Source: Muricea muricata
Taxonomy: Eukaryota > Cnidaria > Anthozoa > Malacalcyonacea > Plexauridae
Assembly: GCA_963855995.1 (NCBI GenBank)
Contig: OY979718.1
Location: forward strand, 23,242,282 to 23,306,281
Reading direction: 5' to 3'
DNA: 64,000 nucleotides
Shown here in pieces: positions 41,538 to 59,215 of this stretch. The position numbers and the translations under genes are program-made. The stretch's first letter is position 1. Every line of letters starts with the position of its first letter. The notes below the pieces were generated by a model, which worked only from the letters and a program-made list of their open reading frames with translations, made no database searches and was not told where the DNA came from.

Positions 41538-43431
41538 TCACGCATTATCACGAATTTTTTCAAAAGCGTATGCCACATTCAGCACCGTCACCTCATCAAA
41601 CATTTTACCAACAATCATCATTCCAACAGGAAGTTGGTTTAAAAATCCGGCGTTTATCGACAGAGCTGGATGTCCTGAAACATCAAATGAAGCAGTATTG
41701 CTGCACATTTCGAAGGCTTTTTCCTGACACTCTGAAGGTAGATAAAAAGTTAAAAATTAAGAAAAAATACATAATCGCATAATTAATAAATAAACTATGT
41801 TTAATTCTACTTCTATACGTAGTTCCACTTTGTTTCTTATATGTATAAAATTTATTGACATAAAATGTTTACAAAAATTTCTGAAAAACATTACAAGAAT
41901 TAGTCTGTAATAAAAATAATCTGCTAAATTTATTTGTGGACATCAAGATGATACGAGTGCGATTTTTGCAACTACATGTCAAACACCTTTGGTTGAACTC
42001 GTTTGAAGGAGTCAAAGTAAATAATAAAAAGGCTTGAACAATTCAATGCAAGATATTTTGATGTATGACAAGTACTCAGCCTGGGTTCCACTGAGCAGTT
42101 TGACATCAGAATTTGAACAGGTTTTTTTTAAGGTGTATGAATCAATAGAGTATAAGGAACTCTACAGTAATTACCTATTTATATTGTTAAATTGCCCATT
42201 CACATTTGAACATCACACATAAGTGTATGATGTGACGCAACCAGTTTTATTGTTTTTAGCAAAAAAAAGTAGTTGGTGAAATTAACTAGAAATTTATTGA
42301 TTTAAAGAGTAAAAATAATTATTTAAAAGAATTAACAAAAAACATTGACCATTTATAAGCCAATTATTATCTTTAGTTGGTTTGACCAATTACTTTTTTC
42401 TAAGAACAACTCTTATTTCAGTTACTCAGATGCATCGAAACCAACTTTTTTATCATCTGAAACAGTTTGTGGTAGTAGTTGTATGTAATAGTGGGAATAT
42501 TGCAACAAAGGTAACCTTTTTTATGTAAATAATTTAACTAGTAAATGAATTCTGAATTGATTTAGCTGGTATAAGTAAGGATATTTACAATAGTTATTTT
42601 ACTCCACCGGAGAATTATAAATTTACTCCAAAAGTGGAATAAAACTAAAAGGTACAGAGCTACTCCTTTTCTGGAGTAAAAATTACTCCACCTAACACTT
42701 GAGTAGATTTAACTTCATGAAGACATGGCTCGAAAGTCCTTCTTTCTCAATCGCCCTTCACGCTTCATAACAGTTACCATGTTGAGAAAAATTCAATTAT
42801 GAAAAATAATAGAGAGGTTCAGATTTGGCTTCCAATACCTCTACCGCTACCTTAATCTATCTTTCAGCCAATCAGATGTGCCGGATGTACCCGATTAACC
42901 AATCGAATCGTTTAAAAATCGGGAGAAGATAGCGGTAGTGGTAGAGGAAGTCAAATCTGAACCTCACTGACGTTTAAATTAATACGACATAATTGTAATT
43001 ATAAGTCGGGTTTATTCGGAAAGCGAGACTGCAGCACCATTGTAAGTAGCCGGGACAACTGGCCCATGTAATCTGCTCCTAAAGTGGAATTTCTATCTTC
43101 ACTCCAAGTAACGGCCTGAACTGCGCTTTGCGCCGCTGAATCGGAGATAATATCAGTGAATTTGAAACTAGGCACCCTCCTTTCTTCTATGTTTATAGTA
43201 AAAGCGTTTTCCCTATGTTTATGCCGCATACATATGAGCGATGCACACTTCTAGTACTCACCAGATAAAGAAGCGTTCTTGGAAGGAAATTTTGAAGCTG
43301 TTTTAGGAATTGTAGGCATGATAAGAACATCATGTTTCTTGAATGCTTCATCGTACGCCTGGCGCATATCTTGTCGCAAATTTTGACACTTATTATAATA
43401 ATATGCGTCATAGTTTTTGTCACGAAGGTAC
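41538..43431 (-). CDS. Amidase-signature family enzyme, two C-terminal exons
   Basis: Two minus-strand exons join in frame: 43431-43262 (ending TCTG|GTGAGT) and 41731-41538 (after TTCAG, ending TGA). The joined protein reads RDKNYDAYYYNKCQNLRQ, then AYDEAFKKHDVLIMPTIP, and finally FDVSGHPALSINAGF, LPVGMMIVGKMFDEVTVL and YAFEKIRDNA. These are the usual C-terminal blocks of amidases: the AYDEAF..DVLIMPT.P block, the F.VSGHPA...P.G block, and the LPVG.MIVG..FDE..VL..AYAFE block. The family hydrolyses amide bonds with a Ser-cisSer-Lys triad, and fatty-acid amide hydrolases belong to it. The catalytic exons with GGSSGG were not found upstream; they may lie past the Penelope relic at 45.2-46.5 kb or be lost. 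It converges on the solitary ILEI exon, with stops about 450 bases apart. Substrate is unknown. Confidence 0.78.
42600..42715. repeat. Short palindromic TTTACTCCA repeats
   Basis: ACTCCACCGGAG, ACTCCAAAAGTGGAAT, CTACTCCTTTTCTGGAGTA and ACTCCACC, with AAAGGTACAGAGC in the middle. The arrangement, including AAAGGTACAGA, resembles the subterminal repeats at 47040-47260. Confidence 0.5.
42814..42965. mobile_element. Palindromic MITE
   Basis: GAGGTTCAGATTTGGCTTCC at the left and, inverted at the right, GGAAGTCAAATCTGAACCTC. Second arm blocks are CCTCTACCGCTACC and GGTAGTGGTAGAGG. It lies in the amidase intron. Confidence 0.7.
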
Positions 43432-46500: not shown

Positions 46501-47574
46501 ATTAAGATTCTTCATGAACTTGTCATAGTAATTTTGGTCAAACAAATCTCGACCAAAATGGGATGGACCCGAGTTATCTACGACGACTAAAAGTAGGCTC
46601 AAATGCCACACAATAACATTTAAAATTTCTGTACAAGTTTACAGTTTGATCTTGCGTGCTTTTTCTTGCTAAAGTTAGAACACTTTGTCCCTTTATCAGG
46701 TTTCGACGATTTATCATGCTTCCAACGTTTCTAGATCTGTCTAAAATTCATTTGATGTGATGCCTTTCCACCTATCTTGTTATTGTTGCACGAAAAAGCT
46801 GGCGAAATAGCTGGGACCACGAGGGTAACTAGAGCTGGAAAAACGCGAATATATGAATAAACACCAACCAATTCTCCTTCTAGTGGAGCCTCTGTCTGAG
46901 ACATCCTCGTCGGCTGTTTCGAGACCCTAGACAAAGGCGTTGTCAAAGGTATAATCGTCAGCCAACATTTGCTTTTTAGTGTTACTGCTTCTAAGATAAC
47001 AGATGAACCGATCGCGCATATACACTGTTAATTTGAAGGTGTTAAAATAACACCAAAAATGGTGTCAAATAAAAAGGTACAGAATAACACCCTTTTGGGT
47101 GCTATTTTGACACTACCATATCGGGTGTCAAATTAGCACCTACAGAGGTGTCAATTTAGCACCTTTTTTGGCGTCAAAATAGCACTCTTTTGGTTGTCAA
47201 AACAGCACCTCATCTTGGTGTCAAAATAGCACTTCTTTTGGTGTCAAAATAGCATTTCATTACCCGTTGTTCTACCGCTTTGAGACAGGTACCAAAATAG
47301 TTTGACTCAGTCAAACAACCGCCCCAGCTAATTTGACTGTAGTTTTAGCACACTTCAAAACGTTTCCCACCCAAAAATACTATCAAAACTTAGGTTTAAA
47401 AAGATTTATTCCAGTTCATCTATTTACATTTCTGTCGACTTACTGGCATAAAAGTTCTAACTCCCTAACAAGTTTGTGAACTGACACTCTTTTCTTTGCC
47501 TGTTGTGGATTGTTCAAAAGAACAGCTTATACATTTTCTACATCAGATGTGTACTGCATTTTAAGAATATATGT

Positions 47575-47749
47575 TTAAGAATGTTCTAACCACGGTATCA
47601 CAGCAATGGGAACATCGCACTGGCCTTTAACATCAAGACGCAACAACACTTGTTCTTCCACAGCACTCAACAGGGGATTGAGGCTTTACAAGTCTCCTGA
47701 GCCAAGAGAAATAAGATTTCAAAATTTCTTCATCCATCAATTCATCTTC
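47575..47749 (-). pseudogene. Degraded last exon inside the 4.76-kb element
   Basis: After GTTTTAG the minus strand reads EDELMDEEILKSYFSWLRRL. After a one-base shift it continues NPLLSAVEEQVLLRLDVKGQ, then CDVPIAVIPWLEHS and TAA. It probably belongs to the same gene as 49845-50046. A piece KKEVKDMIEMYLKAE at about 48410-48455 may be a middle exon. Confidence 0.5.
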
Positions 47750-49570
47750 CTAAAACACAAAAGTGAATATTTTACTTTTTATAAATACTTCATTGACAAC
47801 TTGATTTCTTCCTGGAATCCTAGAAGACCATTTTAAGCATGACTACAGATTGATCTGAAAACACCACGAAGAGTACAAATTTTTATCAGTGCTATTGACC
47901 ACAGTTGCATTCTGATTTCATATGCATTTATAACTCATTGACACAAAGACATCCCAGTTACCAAACACTTGTAAGTCTCTGCTTACTATATAATCAACTT
48001 ACTTATCAAACCCTTTTAATAGTAAATGGCCATACACTACTTGTATTAATAAAACGATATTGTAAAGCCTAGTTCACACAATAGAGTAACTATAAGGCCT
48101 ATAAATGGTGTGACTTCACCAATGCAACAATTGCTAAATGCATTCATCACTCAGGAGAGATAAGCATGGGCACAAGGAAAGGAAATTAAAGCTCAAACTC
48201 AAAAAGAACTCTCTGTACAATAGTATTGATATATTCATATGAAAAGATACATGACACTACAAACAACCCAAAATTACGTACAACCCAAAATTACGTACTA
48301 GATTACATACCAATCTCTTTCTCAGGATGTCCTCTGCCAATTACGATTCCATAAACAAGCTAAGGTTACCAGGCTCTTTTTTAATGAACCACAGGCCCAA
48401 GTAATTACTCTGCTTTGAGGTACATTTCTATCATGTCTTTTACTTCTTTCTTATCAGATGTAATTCAACCAAATTCTGCCTTTACCTGATCATAATTAGA
48501 AAGAATTCAAAATGTTTACAATTACAAATACAACCTACTTCAGAAGTGCCTATATGTCACAAAATTTTTTATTAAATACAAACCAGGACTAGAGTGTATT
48601 GCAATATATTGTTCAATAATAGCATGACGTAAACACTTGAGAGGTTGACTAGAGCCTAGCAGAAGGCAACCCATGTTAATACCACACATACTATACATAG
48701 GAAATATATGTGGAATTTAATCCATTTAGCTGCTGAACTTCTTAAAATGGGTTGAGGAGAGATATTTGTTTCAAATATGCCAAATTTTGTTAGATATTCC
48801 TCTTACCTCCTCATTAAAATAACACAACATCTATGATTAGATAACAAATTGATCCATTAGGCATAAAATTTCAAAATATTGAGATTTGCATTGTCTGATA
48901 AACTTCATTTAGCTGTCATACAATGAATTTGACGATTGTAAGCCGAGCAGCAAATGAAGCATGCTACACATTTAATAATAGAGATAACTGCTCTGCCACT
49001 TCAAATTAGATAATTTCACAATTATACAGAAGTTCATCTTCAGTGCTTTTCACACAAGTGCTATTTGTCAGTATTGGACACTGATTCAGCACTGAGCAAG
49101 GGCCCTAAACAAAAGCAATCACCCCCTTGAAGTATTTAAAATGGTTTATTTCCAGGGGGTGACTGCTTCTGTTTAGGGTACTGCTGAGCAATGAGCCTCA
49201 GCATGTTTATCTATTTTAATTTTATGCCACTACTGTTACTACTCATGTAGCATTCTCTGTTTGTCGCACAGCATTAGCTCGGATTGTTGTCGGTAACTAC
49301 ACTACAGAAGTATGTTGTAGTTAAATTTACCATAAGACAACTTGACAATGCAAAATCTAAATATTTGGAAATATTAGGATGTTTTATTGAAGGAATTGTT
49401 ATTCTAATGAGATTATATATGGGAAGGTAAGTGGAATATCCAAGAAAATTTGGCATATTTTTAATAAACTCCTGAGCCGTGGCCATGCTGGAGTGCATAT
49501 TGCAGCTTCATTGATTAATGTCAAGACCAATACCACACAGGAAGTCACCACACTAATCAAAGCAGGAAAG

Positions 49571-49644
49571 GCCTTAGCAGGATTCAAATGTGTAATCTGT
49601 GGATTAATAGTCCAGCACTTCTCCAATTGAGCTACATGACCAAA
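49571..49644 (-). repeat. tRNA-derived SINE head, nested
   Basis: The minus strand reads GGTCATGTAGCTCAATTGGA with an A-box TAGCTCAATTGG. A degraded B-box CATTTGAATCC follows about 35 bases on. It continues into a non-tRNA body toward 49450. Confidence 0.5.
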
Positions 49645-49844
49645 TTGACTTGAACTTATATCATGTTCTGTAACCAAGCAAAATTCTGCTGCTTGGTCCA
49701 GTATGGTGATACTCTTGTAAAATTAATGATAATTGTGCATGAATATCTCTATGTCAAAATCACATCAAAACATTGCAGTAAGATGCAGTAAGCCTTGGTC
49801 TAATGCTATTGCTCTGTAGTGATTTCAACTATAAATCAACCCAC

Positions 49845-50046
49845 CTCTGAAGTCAATTGAAATGCCGGGAACTCTTCAGGGAGCTTTTCAAGAACTTCCT
49901 CTTTCTATGCCTAATTTAAACACCACTGCAGTCATATCATTGACTGCTGCCAAAGCATTCCAAATACAAACAATTTTTCCACACTCAATATTGCAAGACT
50001 TGAGAAGGTCATCTGATGTATTGCTTAGGATAACAAGTGTGCCAAA
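49845..50046 (-). pseudogene. Degraded exon inside the 4.76-kb element
   Basis: After TTTTAG the minus strand reads FGTLVILSNTSDDLLKSCNI, ECGKIVCIWNALAAVNDM, TAVVFKLGIER. After a one-base shift it continues EVLEKLPEEFPAFQLTSE and ends at a GTGGGT donor. The reading is convincing as former protein sequence, but the family is not recognised. Confidence 0.5.
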
Positions 50047-51786
50047 CTAAAACAAAAAAATCAGCAAATTCACTATACAATATACACAGTAATGAAAACA
50101 AAAAGCTGCAATGTTGTGGAGGTAAAATTGTGTATTGTTTTGACCGATAACATAATTATGGCATTTTACTCCTGATACTCATGGACTGTGTCAGACTCAA
50201 CAATATTGTTCAATATTGTTGACAACCAGCCCCCACAACATTATTGCATCAAGTTTTCAACAACCTGGACCAATTAATAATTTTTGGCCATGTAGTATAC
50301 AACTCTCATACCCTAAGCACTTAATTTAAGCACTATATTCCAATTACAAGATTCCTTTTTGAAATCAATTATTTCACTAATCTTCTGTAATCACTTGACT
50401 GTTACAAATTGGTTTGCGGAATTTTGGAACAAATCATACAATGATACATGCTTTTATTTGCTGCGACTGTCTAGTATAAATCCACAGTCACGATATGAAT
50501 ATTCCTACTGAAAAGCGCCCTGCTTGTAATCCATTGTGTATCTGAACCATCCTATACCAACACTAACTCATTTTGAGAAATCCTTTTGGTTTATAATATA
50601 TCGAAAAAATGTTTTCATTTTCGTTAATTTACGGTTTGATAAAAAGTAACAAACAGACAATAACACCATCTCATATTTTTCGCACTTGTAATGTTTCCAA
50701 TCATAATATCCACATTTTAGAGTATTTATATTATCAAGATAACTGAATTTTTGCACCTCGTCTTCCTCAAGCTATTTACATTCCCTTTGACCCTTACTTA
50801 ATAAAGAGCGGTCAACGAAGAAGAATCTATTTTCAATAACAGGACAAATACAAATTGAGCACTGCCATAGACACTAAACAAACATTTTAGAGCCAAGCCA
50901 GTATTGATTAAACAATACTTACCTACGTCAACTATAAACAAATTATTATACTTTGATGTCGAGGGAATACACCACTACCGAATCTTGACAAAATGATGTT
51001 ATCTGAACAATACAGTTTCAAATCTCCACAACTTTCAACGGGATTTCAACAGCGATTCAGCGAAGATAAAAAAATCAAACCTCGCGGGATTACAGACTTT
51101 GTCCTTTTGAAATCACGTGGTACAATTTTTCCATATATGGCGCTCTGGCGCTACATTTGGAATTCGATCTCTGAAGAGGCCCTGAGTGCTGCCAAAATGC
51201 CTACTGCGGCTACAAAATTCTTTGGCACTAGCAAACTAAACCTACGATTTTTTCGACTTGTAAAATTATTTAGGTCTAACAGATACACTATCGATGTAAC
51301 GTATGTTGAGAATTTGCTGCGGACTCCATACATTTACTTGTAACACATATTGGCCGCCTTCAGGCTTCATAGAGACGGGCCGAATTTCTACGAGGTTTCC
51401 ATACAATTTATTACAGATTAGAAGCAATAAAATATATCGTATTTTGAACGAAAGTTTTCCATATTTACTGTTTGAAGAAATTCATCCGCCATTTTTAATA
51501 CAAAAATTAATTGTTCGTATGGTGTCAATTCGACACTCTCGATTCAACACTCAAAAGGGTGCTATTTTAGCACTTTCGCTGTAAAGAATAGGTGTTATTT
51601 TAACACCCTAGAAAGGTGTCAAATTTTTTTGGTGTTAAATTAGCACCTTCAAACTAACTCACAACTTTTTGGTGCTAAATTGACACCCAAATTGGTGCTA
51701 AAATAACACTTGTTATTTAACTCCACCAGTGGGTGTTAATTTAGCTCCAATGAAGGAGCTATTTTAACACCTTCAAATTAACAGTG

Positions 51787-53013
51787 TAGCTTCATTGAAA
51801 TATCTACCACGAAGATTTGTAGATGCTTCACATTATACCCTCAAATTTAGACACGGACTCGCTTTCTTTTTTAACACAGTTATGAAACCAATGTTGTTTA
51901 GGAATTAGCAATTTCTTGGGCGTATATGAGTCTTTAAAATAACAGCGAGTTGAGTACACACCTTGATCTTCGATGAGGATGAATCGGGCGAATAGAGATC
52001 TGATTAAACGTCATAAGTCCTTGCCTGATGGCATAAACAAGAATTGCTCTACGTTTGTTCGATCCTTCTATATACTGGGTACATCATTTGCTTCAATGTG
52101 TTGCTCCAAACGCTCTGCAATTTGGCAAATAGTGTGCATTGTTTGTTAATGGGGATTAAATTCTTCAACATTGTCATCTCTCTTTATTGCTTTCGCTAAT
52201 TGTTATGTTTTAAGACTGTATTTCTCGATCATCGATTAATCTAACTCTTAACCACTCACAGGCGGCCCAAAATTCTTCAGTGATGCATCAAAAAATTCAT
52301 TTATATTTTAATACATGTTGTATTTTTTAAATATATATACATATATTGCCAATGTAATTTAAAGATTTCAGAAATAAGAGTTCCTTACCTATTAATAATT
52401 GTGTTTAAACATGTTTAGACAGCAACAGTCTTTTTAAAACACGTGTGGGAAATTAGCGCAGAATAAATAAAGGAAAGACAGGAGACTCTAGCCCATCACG
52501 CAATCCTTTTAAACATCGCATTAAAATAACATCAAACGGATTAATAAACGACAGCCCTCTCAGCCCAACCAGTAAACTCAGGCGTCATTTTAAAACGAAT
52601 GAATGGAATATTCCAATTTTTGCAATACAAGTTCCAAGAATCTCAGGCTCCGCCCAAATTTTGCGGCAAAAATAAAGGGAAGTGAGATCATTGATTTACG
52701 AAAACCAAAACAATTATGTACCTTAATGAGTGAGCATGAGTTGAGCCGGAAGGTGAGATTCCAGAGCCGTGTTTTCTGGCACCCTTGCACAGTACAGAAA
52801 ATAAAAATTAGGATCACTCAACAGTTCAACATGTCCGTATTTTTATGCCATTGACTGCTCAGAATAATGGCGAAACAGCCAGTTCAGCGTTTTTATTCGC
52901 CACAAAAGTCCATTGACTGGCCAGAATCTGCATAATCAACATGCGTAATGCGACATGCCCGGCCATGCAAACTTCAGTTTCCGACTTGAATGACACTTGC
53001 GTGTTGCGGCCGT
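51787..53013. other. Intergenic stretch without recognised features
   Basis: AT-rich, with overlapping short frames on both strands at 52590-52854 that show no family. Nothing else was seen. Confidence 0.4.
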
Positions 53014-53265: not shown

Positions 53266-53497
53266 TGAGTTAGGAAAGCTTATCTCGCAATCTTTACATT
53301 ATTTATCCACAATTTTCGATAAATACGTGACACGCATTTAAATAAATATAATACCAAAACAAACTCAGGCCTGAAAATATGAACCACTTACAAAATGGTG
53401 AACCAGTTCAGTAGCCTAATATCAGTCTACTGAACAGCAACCTGGACTATATATAGGCTAATGTAATTGAATATTAATATATAGTAACCTAATACTA

Positions 53498-53712
53498 GGC
53501 AAGGCAAGGCAAGGCAAGGCAAGGCAAGGCAAGGCAAGGCAAGGCAAGGCAAGGCAAGGCAAGGCAAGGCAAGGCAAGGCAAGGCAAGGCAAGGCAAGGC
53601 AAGGCAAGGCAAGGCAAGGCAAGGCAAGGCAAGGCAAGGCAAGGCAAGGCAAGGCAAGGCAAGGCAAGGCAAGGCAAGGCAAGGCAAGGCAAGGCAAGGC
53701 AAGGCAAGGCAA
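53498..53712. repeat. (GGCAA)n array, about 43 copies
   Basis: 215 uninterrupted bases of the pentamer. The leucine/proline/cysteine/alanine frames on the minus strand are artefacts of the repeat. Confidence 0.97.
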
Positions 53713-58564: not shown

Positions 58565-59215
58565 GACAATCTTGCCAAGATCCCAGTAAGATCTTGCCAA
58601 GATCTTATACAAGATCCTGTCATGATCTTGCCAAGATCTTGACATAAATCCTGCAAGATCATGGAAAGATCTTACAGGATCTTGCAAGATCTTTCCAAGT
58701 TCTTACAGGATCTTACCAAGATCCTGCAAGATCTTGCCATGATCCTGCAAGATCTTACCAACAATCCTGCAATATCTTGCCATGATCCCACAAGATCTTA
58801 TTAAGAATCCTGCAAGATCTTACCAAGATCCTGCAAGATCTTGCCATGGTTGCACAAGATCTTATTAAGATCCTGCAAGATCTTAACAAGATCCTGCAAG
58901 ATCTTGCCATGATTGCACAAGATCTTATTAAGAATCCTGCAAGGTCTTACCAAGATCCTGCAAGATCTTGCCATGATCATACAAGATCTTATTAAGAATC
59001 CTGCAAGGTCTTACCAAGATCCTGCAAGATCTTGTCATGATCCTGCATAATCTTACCAAAAATCCTGCAAGATCTTATTAAGAATCTTACATGATCTTAC
59101 CAAGATCCCACATGATCTTACCAAGAATCCTGAAAGATCTTGCCATGATTTTGCAAGATAATACTAGTAATCTTGACATAAATCCTGTAAAATCATGGAA
59201 AGATCTTGTAGTTTC
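58565..59215. repeat. Satellite-like array of about 21-bp GATCTTGC units
   Basis: About 30 diverged units of the type AAGATCCTGCAAGATCTTRC, each rich in the palindrome AGATCT and alternating CAAGATCTTG. It starts directly after the right end of the THAP element. Longer two-unit periods (about 42 bp) are visible, as in CCTGCAAGATCTTGCCATGA. Confidence 0.9.

Follow-up and report, generated by a model that had tools for sequence, protein, structure and literature searches.

We analysed a window of 64,000 nucleotides from the anthozoan Muricea muricata (contig OY979718.1, positions 23,242,282 to 23,306,281) and found that its positions 47023–51786 are a single DNA transposon, as confirmed by five further full-length copies that share its ends. 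The element is very probably a non-autonomous, internally deleted member of a family of the CACTA/EnSpm-Mirage-Chapaev (CMC) supergroup. We regard it as a deletion derivative of a known kind because a complete relative in the same genome has a gene whose motifs follow the order of CMC transposases. An earlier note on this DNA had called the element unclassified; this relative allows it to be classified.

The outer limits of the element are TA followed by CACTG at 47023 and CAGTG followed by TA at 51786. The left terminus reads CACTGTTAATTTGAAGGTG, preceded by TA, and the right terminus is the inverted form of this sequence, followed by TA. The inverted repeats are perfect over 27 nt and 81% identical over 53 nt. 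The terminal features are:

47021..47022, no strand: target duplication, left copy (TA); a 2-bp duplication is present in 11 of the 11 elements of the copy layout with both ends
47023..47049, plus strand: left terminal inverted repeat, 27 nt perfect, from inverted-repeat comparison
51760..51786, minus strand: right terminal inverted repeat, 27 nt perfect, from inverted-repeat comparison
51787..51788, no strand: target duplication, right copy (TA); same basis as the left copy

In 60 simulated windows with dinucleotide steps preserved, the longest perfect inverted repeat at a distance of 300–10000 nt was 19 nt. The real window has other perfect inverted repeats of at least 27 nt, which come from other repeats.

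To find further copies, the left 1.5 kb of the element was used as query against the 453-Mb assembly. This gave at least 53 matches, and 20 stretches were taken from them for comparison. Five full-length copies like that of the window were found (L009–L013), and the six copies are pairwise 97.75–98.46% identical. As the five further copies terminate at identical bases, the two ends belong to one element. The earlier note had proposed such an element and had named, as what would speak against it, the case of two independent repeats that happen to be 4.7 kb from each other. We give this explanation no weight: nothing was found in its favour, and the five copies have both ends and the whole interior. 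Shorter deletion forms are also present (L014 and L015, 1.7 kb each, and the 954-bp relative L018), and L016, L017 and L019 match the window element piecewise at 66–82%. The L017 element is ∼6.95 kb long with its right end located in L030. An old inverted duplication lies inside the window element at 48747–49490 (centre ∼49140); its 32-nt arms match at 88%, and weaker arms lie further out. Traces of it are also seen in L009–L013. At L014 3577–6322 the 1.7-kb deletion copy lies beside a 73% relative in opposite orientation, with ∼220 nt between them.

Of 14 elements compared, 11 had both ends located; a twelfth was gained when the L016 element was completed on its right side. A 2-bp target duplication was found in all 12 elements with both ends located: TA in seven (the window copy, L009, L011, L015, L023, L028 and the L016 element), TG in two (L010, L012), CA in two (L014, L018) and CG in one (L013). 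L017, for which the flank of the right end in L030 was unread, and L024, for which the right end was not found, were left out of this count. The target is a pyrimidine-purine (YR) dinucleotide and not TA alone. Thus, the TA boundary described in the earlier note is a true 2-bp duplication at the window copy, but does not hold for the other copies generally. The TA flanks and CACTG ends would also fit a Tc1/mariner-type element such as some DD38E Intruders, and DD38E/IT elements starting with CACTA or CACTG have been reported (PMC8472432). We dropped this identity as highly improbable, since the TG, CA or CG duplications of 5 of the 12 elements contradict a TA rule. In addition, Intruders are 1.5–1.7 kb long with a transposase of 341–379 amino acids (PMC7731502), whereas the complete relative has a 10-exon gene for 840 amino acids. 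In a divergent family, four loci (L024–L027, C1:22.74–23.81 Mb) have an identical 6-nt left flank and identical internal words, which suggests one insertion copied along with its surroundings.

The complete relative is 12,382 bp long (C1:11953870–11966251) and was joined from L033, L029 and L016, whose overlaps are identical. Its left end matches that of the window family at 91.6% over 239 nt, and its right end at 85.3% over 306 nt. It carries two unbroken multi-exon genes that are transcribed away from each other. The gene running toward the right end has 10 exons and an unbroken frame of 840 amino acids, in which the motifs YFDEVE (D295), VSGDN (D390), CRVC (410–413), HYMVH (623–627) and RYEAKH (E647) follow one another. 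With residues assigned by eye, this is a D-D-C(2)C-H(3)H-E order; CMC transposases and RAG1 have been described as having the series D, D, C(2)C, H(3-4)H, E (PMC12730594). The N-terminus of the protein has C2H2-like stretches that are sub-threshold. The best Pfam match of the protein is DUF4218 (E 0.016), a domain that belongs to CACTA transposases. From these features we infer that the complete relative, or one like it, encodes a putative DDE transposase.

Several points weigh against this assignment. The D, D and E residues were picked without alignment to reference transposases, and a further acidic motif, DAMHDVLEG (477), lies between the assigned residues. The DUF4218 match scores 15.5 bits, which is below the cut-off of 27. 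A PDB search with the transposase core gave only an unrelated plant protein (E 0.069) and no PDB relative. Finally, the complete relative is known from one example only. By eye, an open reading frame at L030 4973–5263 resembles the last transposase exon, and the L017 element is another case of partial loss. Outside the right end of that element, L030 463–2661 holds on the minus strand a 732-amino-acid open frame that by eye is like a long interspersed nuclear element (LINE) endonuclease and reverse transcriptase.

The other gene of the complete relative runs toward the left end. It has 8 exons and encodes 538 amino acids without a stop; exon borders and start were chosen by hand, and 7 of 7 introns are gt...ag. 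Compared with the complete element, the window family is without ∼6.6 kb, reaching from transposase codon 38 up to where the right end region begins. Five of the eight exons of the second gene are detectable in the window (1, 2, the tail of 5, 6 and 8), and exons 3, 4 and 7 gave no match in the window element. The tail of exon 5 sits 46 nt from the remains of exon 2. The remains, found by comparison with the complete relative unless stated otherwise, are:

47446..47707, minus strand: second gene exon 8, with stops and a frame break
48311..48485, minus strand: second gene exon 6, with stops and a frame break
49845..49877, minus strand: second gene exon 5, remains of the tail
49924..50046, minus strand: second gene exon 2, part of the SAM-like stretch
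50757..50822, minus strand: second gene exon 1, from a 73% DNA match
51289..51400, plus strand: transposase-like gene exon 1, residues 4–38 with a stop; the remainder of the gene is missing

The decayed spliced exons of the earlier note are thus present, but they come from two divergent genes rather than one, and mostly from the second gene, not the transposase. That the window copy has no recognisable transposase agrees with our searches. Pfam gave nothing transposase-like for the 43 open reading frames of at least 38 amino acids in the element (best E 0.019), no match for its six frames with stops as X and one chance-level match only for six hand-read pieces, and a PDB search with the joined coding pieces gave no match. 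DNA patterns of the ends and paired palindromes had no match in viral_contigs or genome_contigs, and Rfam and ARAGORN found nothing in the window. In the majority sequence of the six copies the reading frames are still broken. The family therefore most likely spread with proteins made elsewhere, and presumably multiplied in trans.

In order to place the family we compared it with known systems. The CMC/CMCT supergroup is described as having 5′-CA...TG-3′ ends and target duplications of 2–5 bp (PMC12730594). The ends of the window family are CACTG...CAGTG, and its duplication is 2 bp. It resembles CACTA/EnSpm elements in its CACT- ends, short target duplication and spliced transposase, and subterminal repeats are a trait of CACTA elements. 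CACTG ends have been reported in the fungal CACTA element CNIRT6 (PMC12810828). In the strict sense, CACTA/EnSpm elements have CACTA ends and a 3-bp duplication (PMC4158355), from which the CACTG ends and 2-bp YR duplication of the window family differ. CACTA elements also have a second protein, ORF2 (PMC4158355); the second protein found here, which may differ from it, is without a Pfam match and weakly SAM-like. The fungal EnSpm-like ESTA elements likewise make a 2-bp duplication and follow the CMCT motif order (PMC12730594), but duplicate TA, whereas the window family duplicates YR generally. No TET/JBP gene was noticed in the complete relative, where no dedicated search for it was made. 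Fungal CNEST and unclassified animal transposases have been described as a new CMC superfamily (PMC12810828). By this description CNEST is a candidate relative of the window family. The piggyBac elements duplicate TTAA. Coral CMITEs, which are linked to piggyBac-like elements (PMC2872659), are like the window family non-autonomous elements of coral genomes. Membership of piggyBac or the coral CMITEs was rejected, as the duplications of the window family are 2-bp YR.

Both ends of the element carry an array of ∼250 nt. Its unit is a 17-bp imperfect palindrome in which two half-sites, GGTG(TT/TC/CT)A, face each other. Allowing for up to 3 mismatches, the pattern GGTGTNAAANTARCACC has 29 matches in the window on both strands; the mean in shuffles was 3.4 and none of 100 reached 29. 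In agreement with the arrays of the earlier note, 24 of these matches, at 16 places, lie within the following two features:

47038..47256, no strand: left array, 8 palindromic 17-bp units, inner spacing 23–26 nt, from pattern matches and period
51521..51771, no strand: right array, 8 palindromic 17-bp units, spacings 23–40 nt, from pattern matches and relatives

A stricter rule based on two half-sites gives 15 units in the window, 14 of them within the arrays. The left array has a 23-nt period, and after a first gap of 60 nt its units follow every 23–26 nt. By the two-half-site rule the spacings in the right array are 33, 40, 40, 23, 38 and 23 nt. Twelve of the 14 units are at the same distance from the ends in the complete relative (left 5/7, right 7/7). 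In L014, L018, L023 and L028 the right units lie 32, 55, 92–93, 116, 156, 196–197, 229 and 266–267 nt from the end. The right spacing thus agrees within 1 nt across four relatives, whereas the left arrays agree less well. Extra units are present further inward in L023 and L028.

The half-sites are better kept than the linkers between them. For the right array, L023 keeps 89/112 half-site positions and 65/124 linker positions, and L028 keeps 91/112 and 69/124 (Fisher p 1.9e-5 and 2.7e-5). For the left array the values are 73/98 and 63/111 in L023, and 72/98 and 63/111 in L028 (p 0.009 and 0.014). These results are good evidence of protein binding by the half-sites but not independent evidence, as the window family itself served to define the half-sites, and L023 and L028 are closely related. 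A smaller difference is seen when the window family is compared with the complete relative: 101/112 vs 98/124 on the right (p 0.020) and 92/98 vs 94/111 on the left (p 0.045). Half-sites that change more slowly than linkers, together with a fixed right spacing, are as expected of protein-binding sites, with the identity of the binder a matter of prediction. This bears out the suggestion that the arrays are of the type bound by a transposition protein. The symmetry of the 17-bp site suggests binding by a dimer.

The arrays could also serve another role, such as host factor binding, a promoter or hairpin-derived small RNAs. The zebrafish element EnSpm-N6_DR has binding sites of the host protein p53 (PMC3485254), and each of the two arrays, taken as a single strand, folds better than shuffled sequence (z −4.65 and −8.93). 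However, palindromes alone produce such folding, and derivatives of 0.95 kb and 1.7 kb that are stripped of nearly everything else still carry the arrays at both ends. We therefore consider another role quite unlikely.

The second gene is the unusual part of an otherwise known kind of element. Its 538-amino-acid product had no Pfam match at E up to 1. A PDB search with the first 70 residues aligned residues 4–58 without gaps (55 residues) to the SAM domain of MAP3K15 (6v0m) at a weak E of 0.037; two pentatricopeptide-repeat entries totalled better, their totals being added up from repeated matches that each gave no more than 3 bits. The start of the protein thus weakly resembles a SAM domain, and its later exons may resemble proteins annotated as SAMD3-like. 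Among the papers listed in the literature searches, judged by title and abstract start, we found no report of a SAM gene paired with such a transposase, which does not imply its absence from print.

The second gene may be a captured host gene without a role in transposition, the transposase alone binding the arrays. This is a serious possibility that we put somewhat short of even. Its product does not resemble a known transposition protein, and the transposase-like protein has C2H2-like stretches of its own that could serve in binding. Between L016 and L019 (exons 2, 5, 6 and 7), 7 synonymous and 15 non-synonymous changes give a ratio of 0.60 with no stop, which over 747 nt is inconclusive as a test of selection. 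The exons are gapped or partly missing in L017 and L019. Against capture, the gene is enclosed by the ends both in the window family and in L016, and has exon matches in L017 and L019, and in L016, alone among these three relatives, it is unbroken over its 8 exons; these points are not decisive. Another reading is that of a CMC lineage with two genes, where the second protein binds the arrays as dimers on phased 17-bp palindromes and polymerises through its SAM-like part. It would thereby build two distinct end complexes of fixed length, both required by the transposase. We advance it tentatively and think it rather unlikely.

For the CMC family as a whole, the 840-amino-acid protein would cut at the CACTG/CAGTG ends and insert into YR dinucleotides. 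One or both family proteins, probably as dimers, would sit on the palindromes, and the occupant may be the zinc-finger-like start of the 840-amino-acid protein or the second protein. The bound proteins would mark and pair the two ends, and the differently spaced arrays could distinguish left from right. The proteins of the complete relative would then mobilise deleted copies in trans. What was an unclassified repeat becomes a testable two-part system, consisting of a complete element with two unbroken frames and deleted copies with homologous ends. Palindrome spacing that is kept while linkers drift offers a concrete way into the recognition and pairing of ends by such transposons. If the second protein does bind the arrays, it would be a new type of helper for the CMC supergroup, and the words of the half-sites, GGTGYYA here and possibly GGAGTA at 42600, would keep families separate.

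The related array that the earlier note had placed at 42600–42715 is real. It is weakly similar to the element and built of different words, and no partner end was found within the window:

42586..42715, plus strand: possible left end, without its partner, from a distant relative, with GGAGT/ACTCC palindromes (uncertain), from similarity to the left end

It shares AAAAGGTACAGA and its layout with the left end of the element, at 78% over 41 nt (E 0.001) and 74% over 53 nt, and could be an isolated end from a distant family. The word CACTGTTAA at L020:2445 was tried as an end of a GGAGT-type family and dropped, having no array behind it. Another pair of long perfect inverted repeats (AGGGACTTGTCAGAAATTAACAGGGGG...), ∼1.6 kb apart at 1038–2660, is probably a different DNA transposon. 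The window also holds 43 perfect copies of AGGCA at 53497–53712 and, at 58588–59159, a tandem array that is rich in AAGATC and repeats a unit of 21 nt. Outside the element, Pfam matches that fit an animal (ILEI, PAN and Amidase) were obtained from the 110 of 142 longer open reading frames that were scanned.

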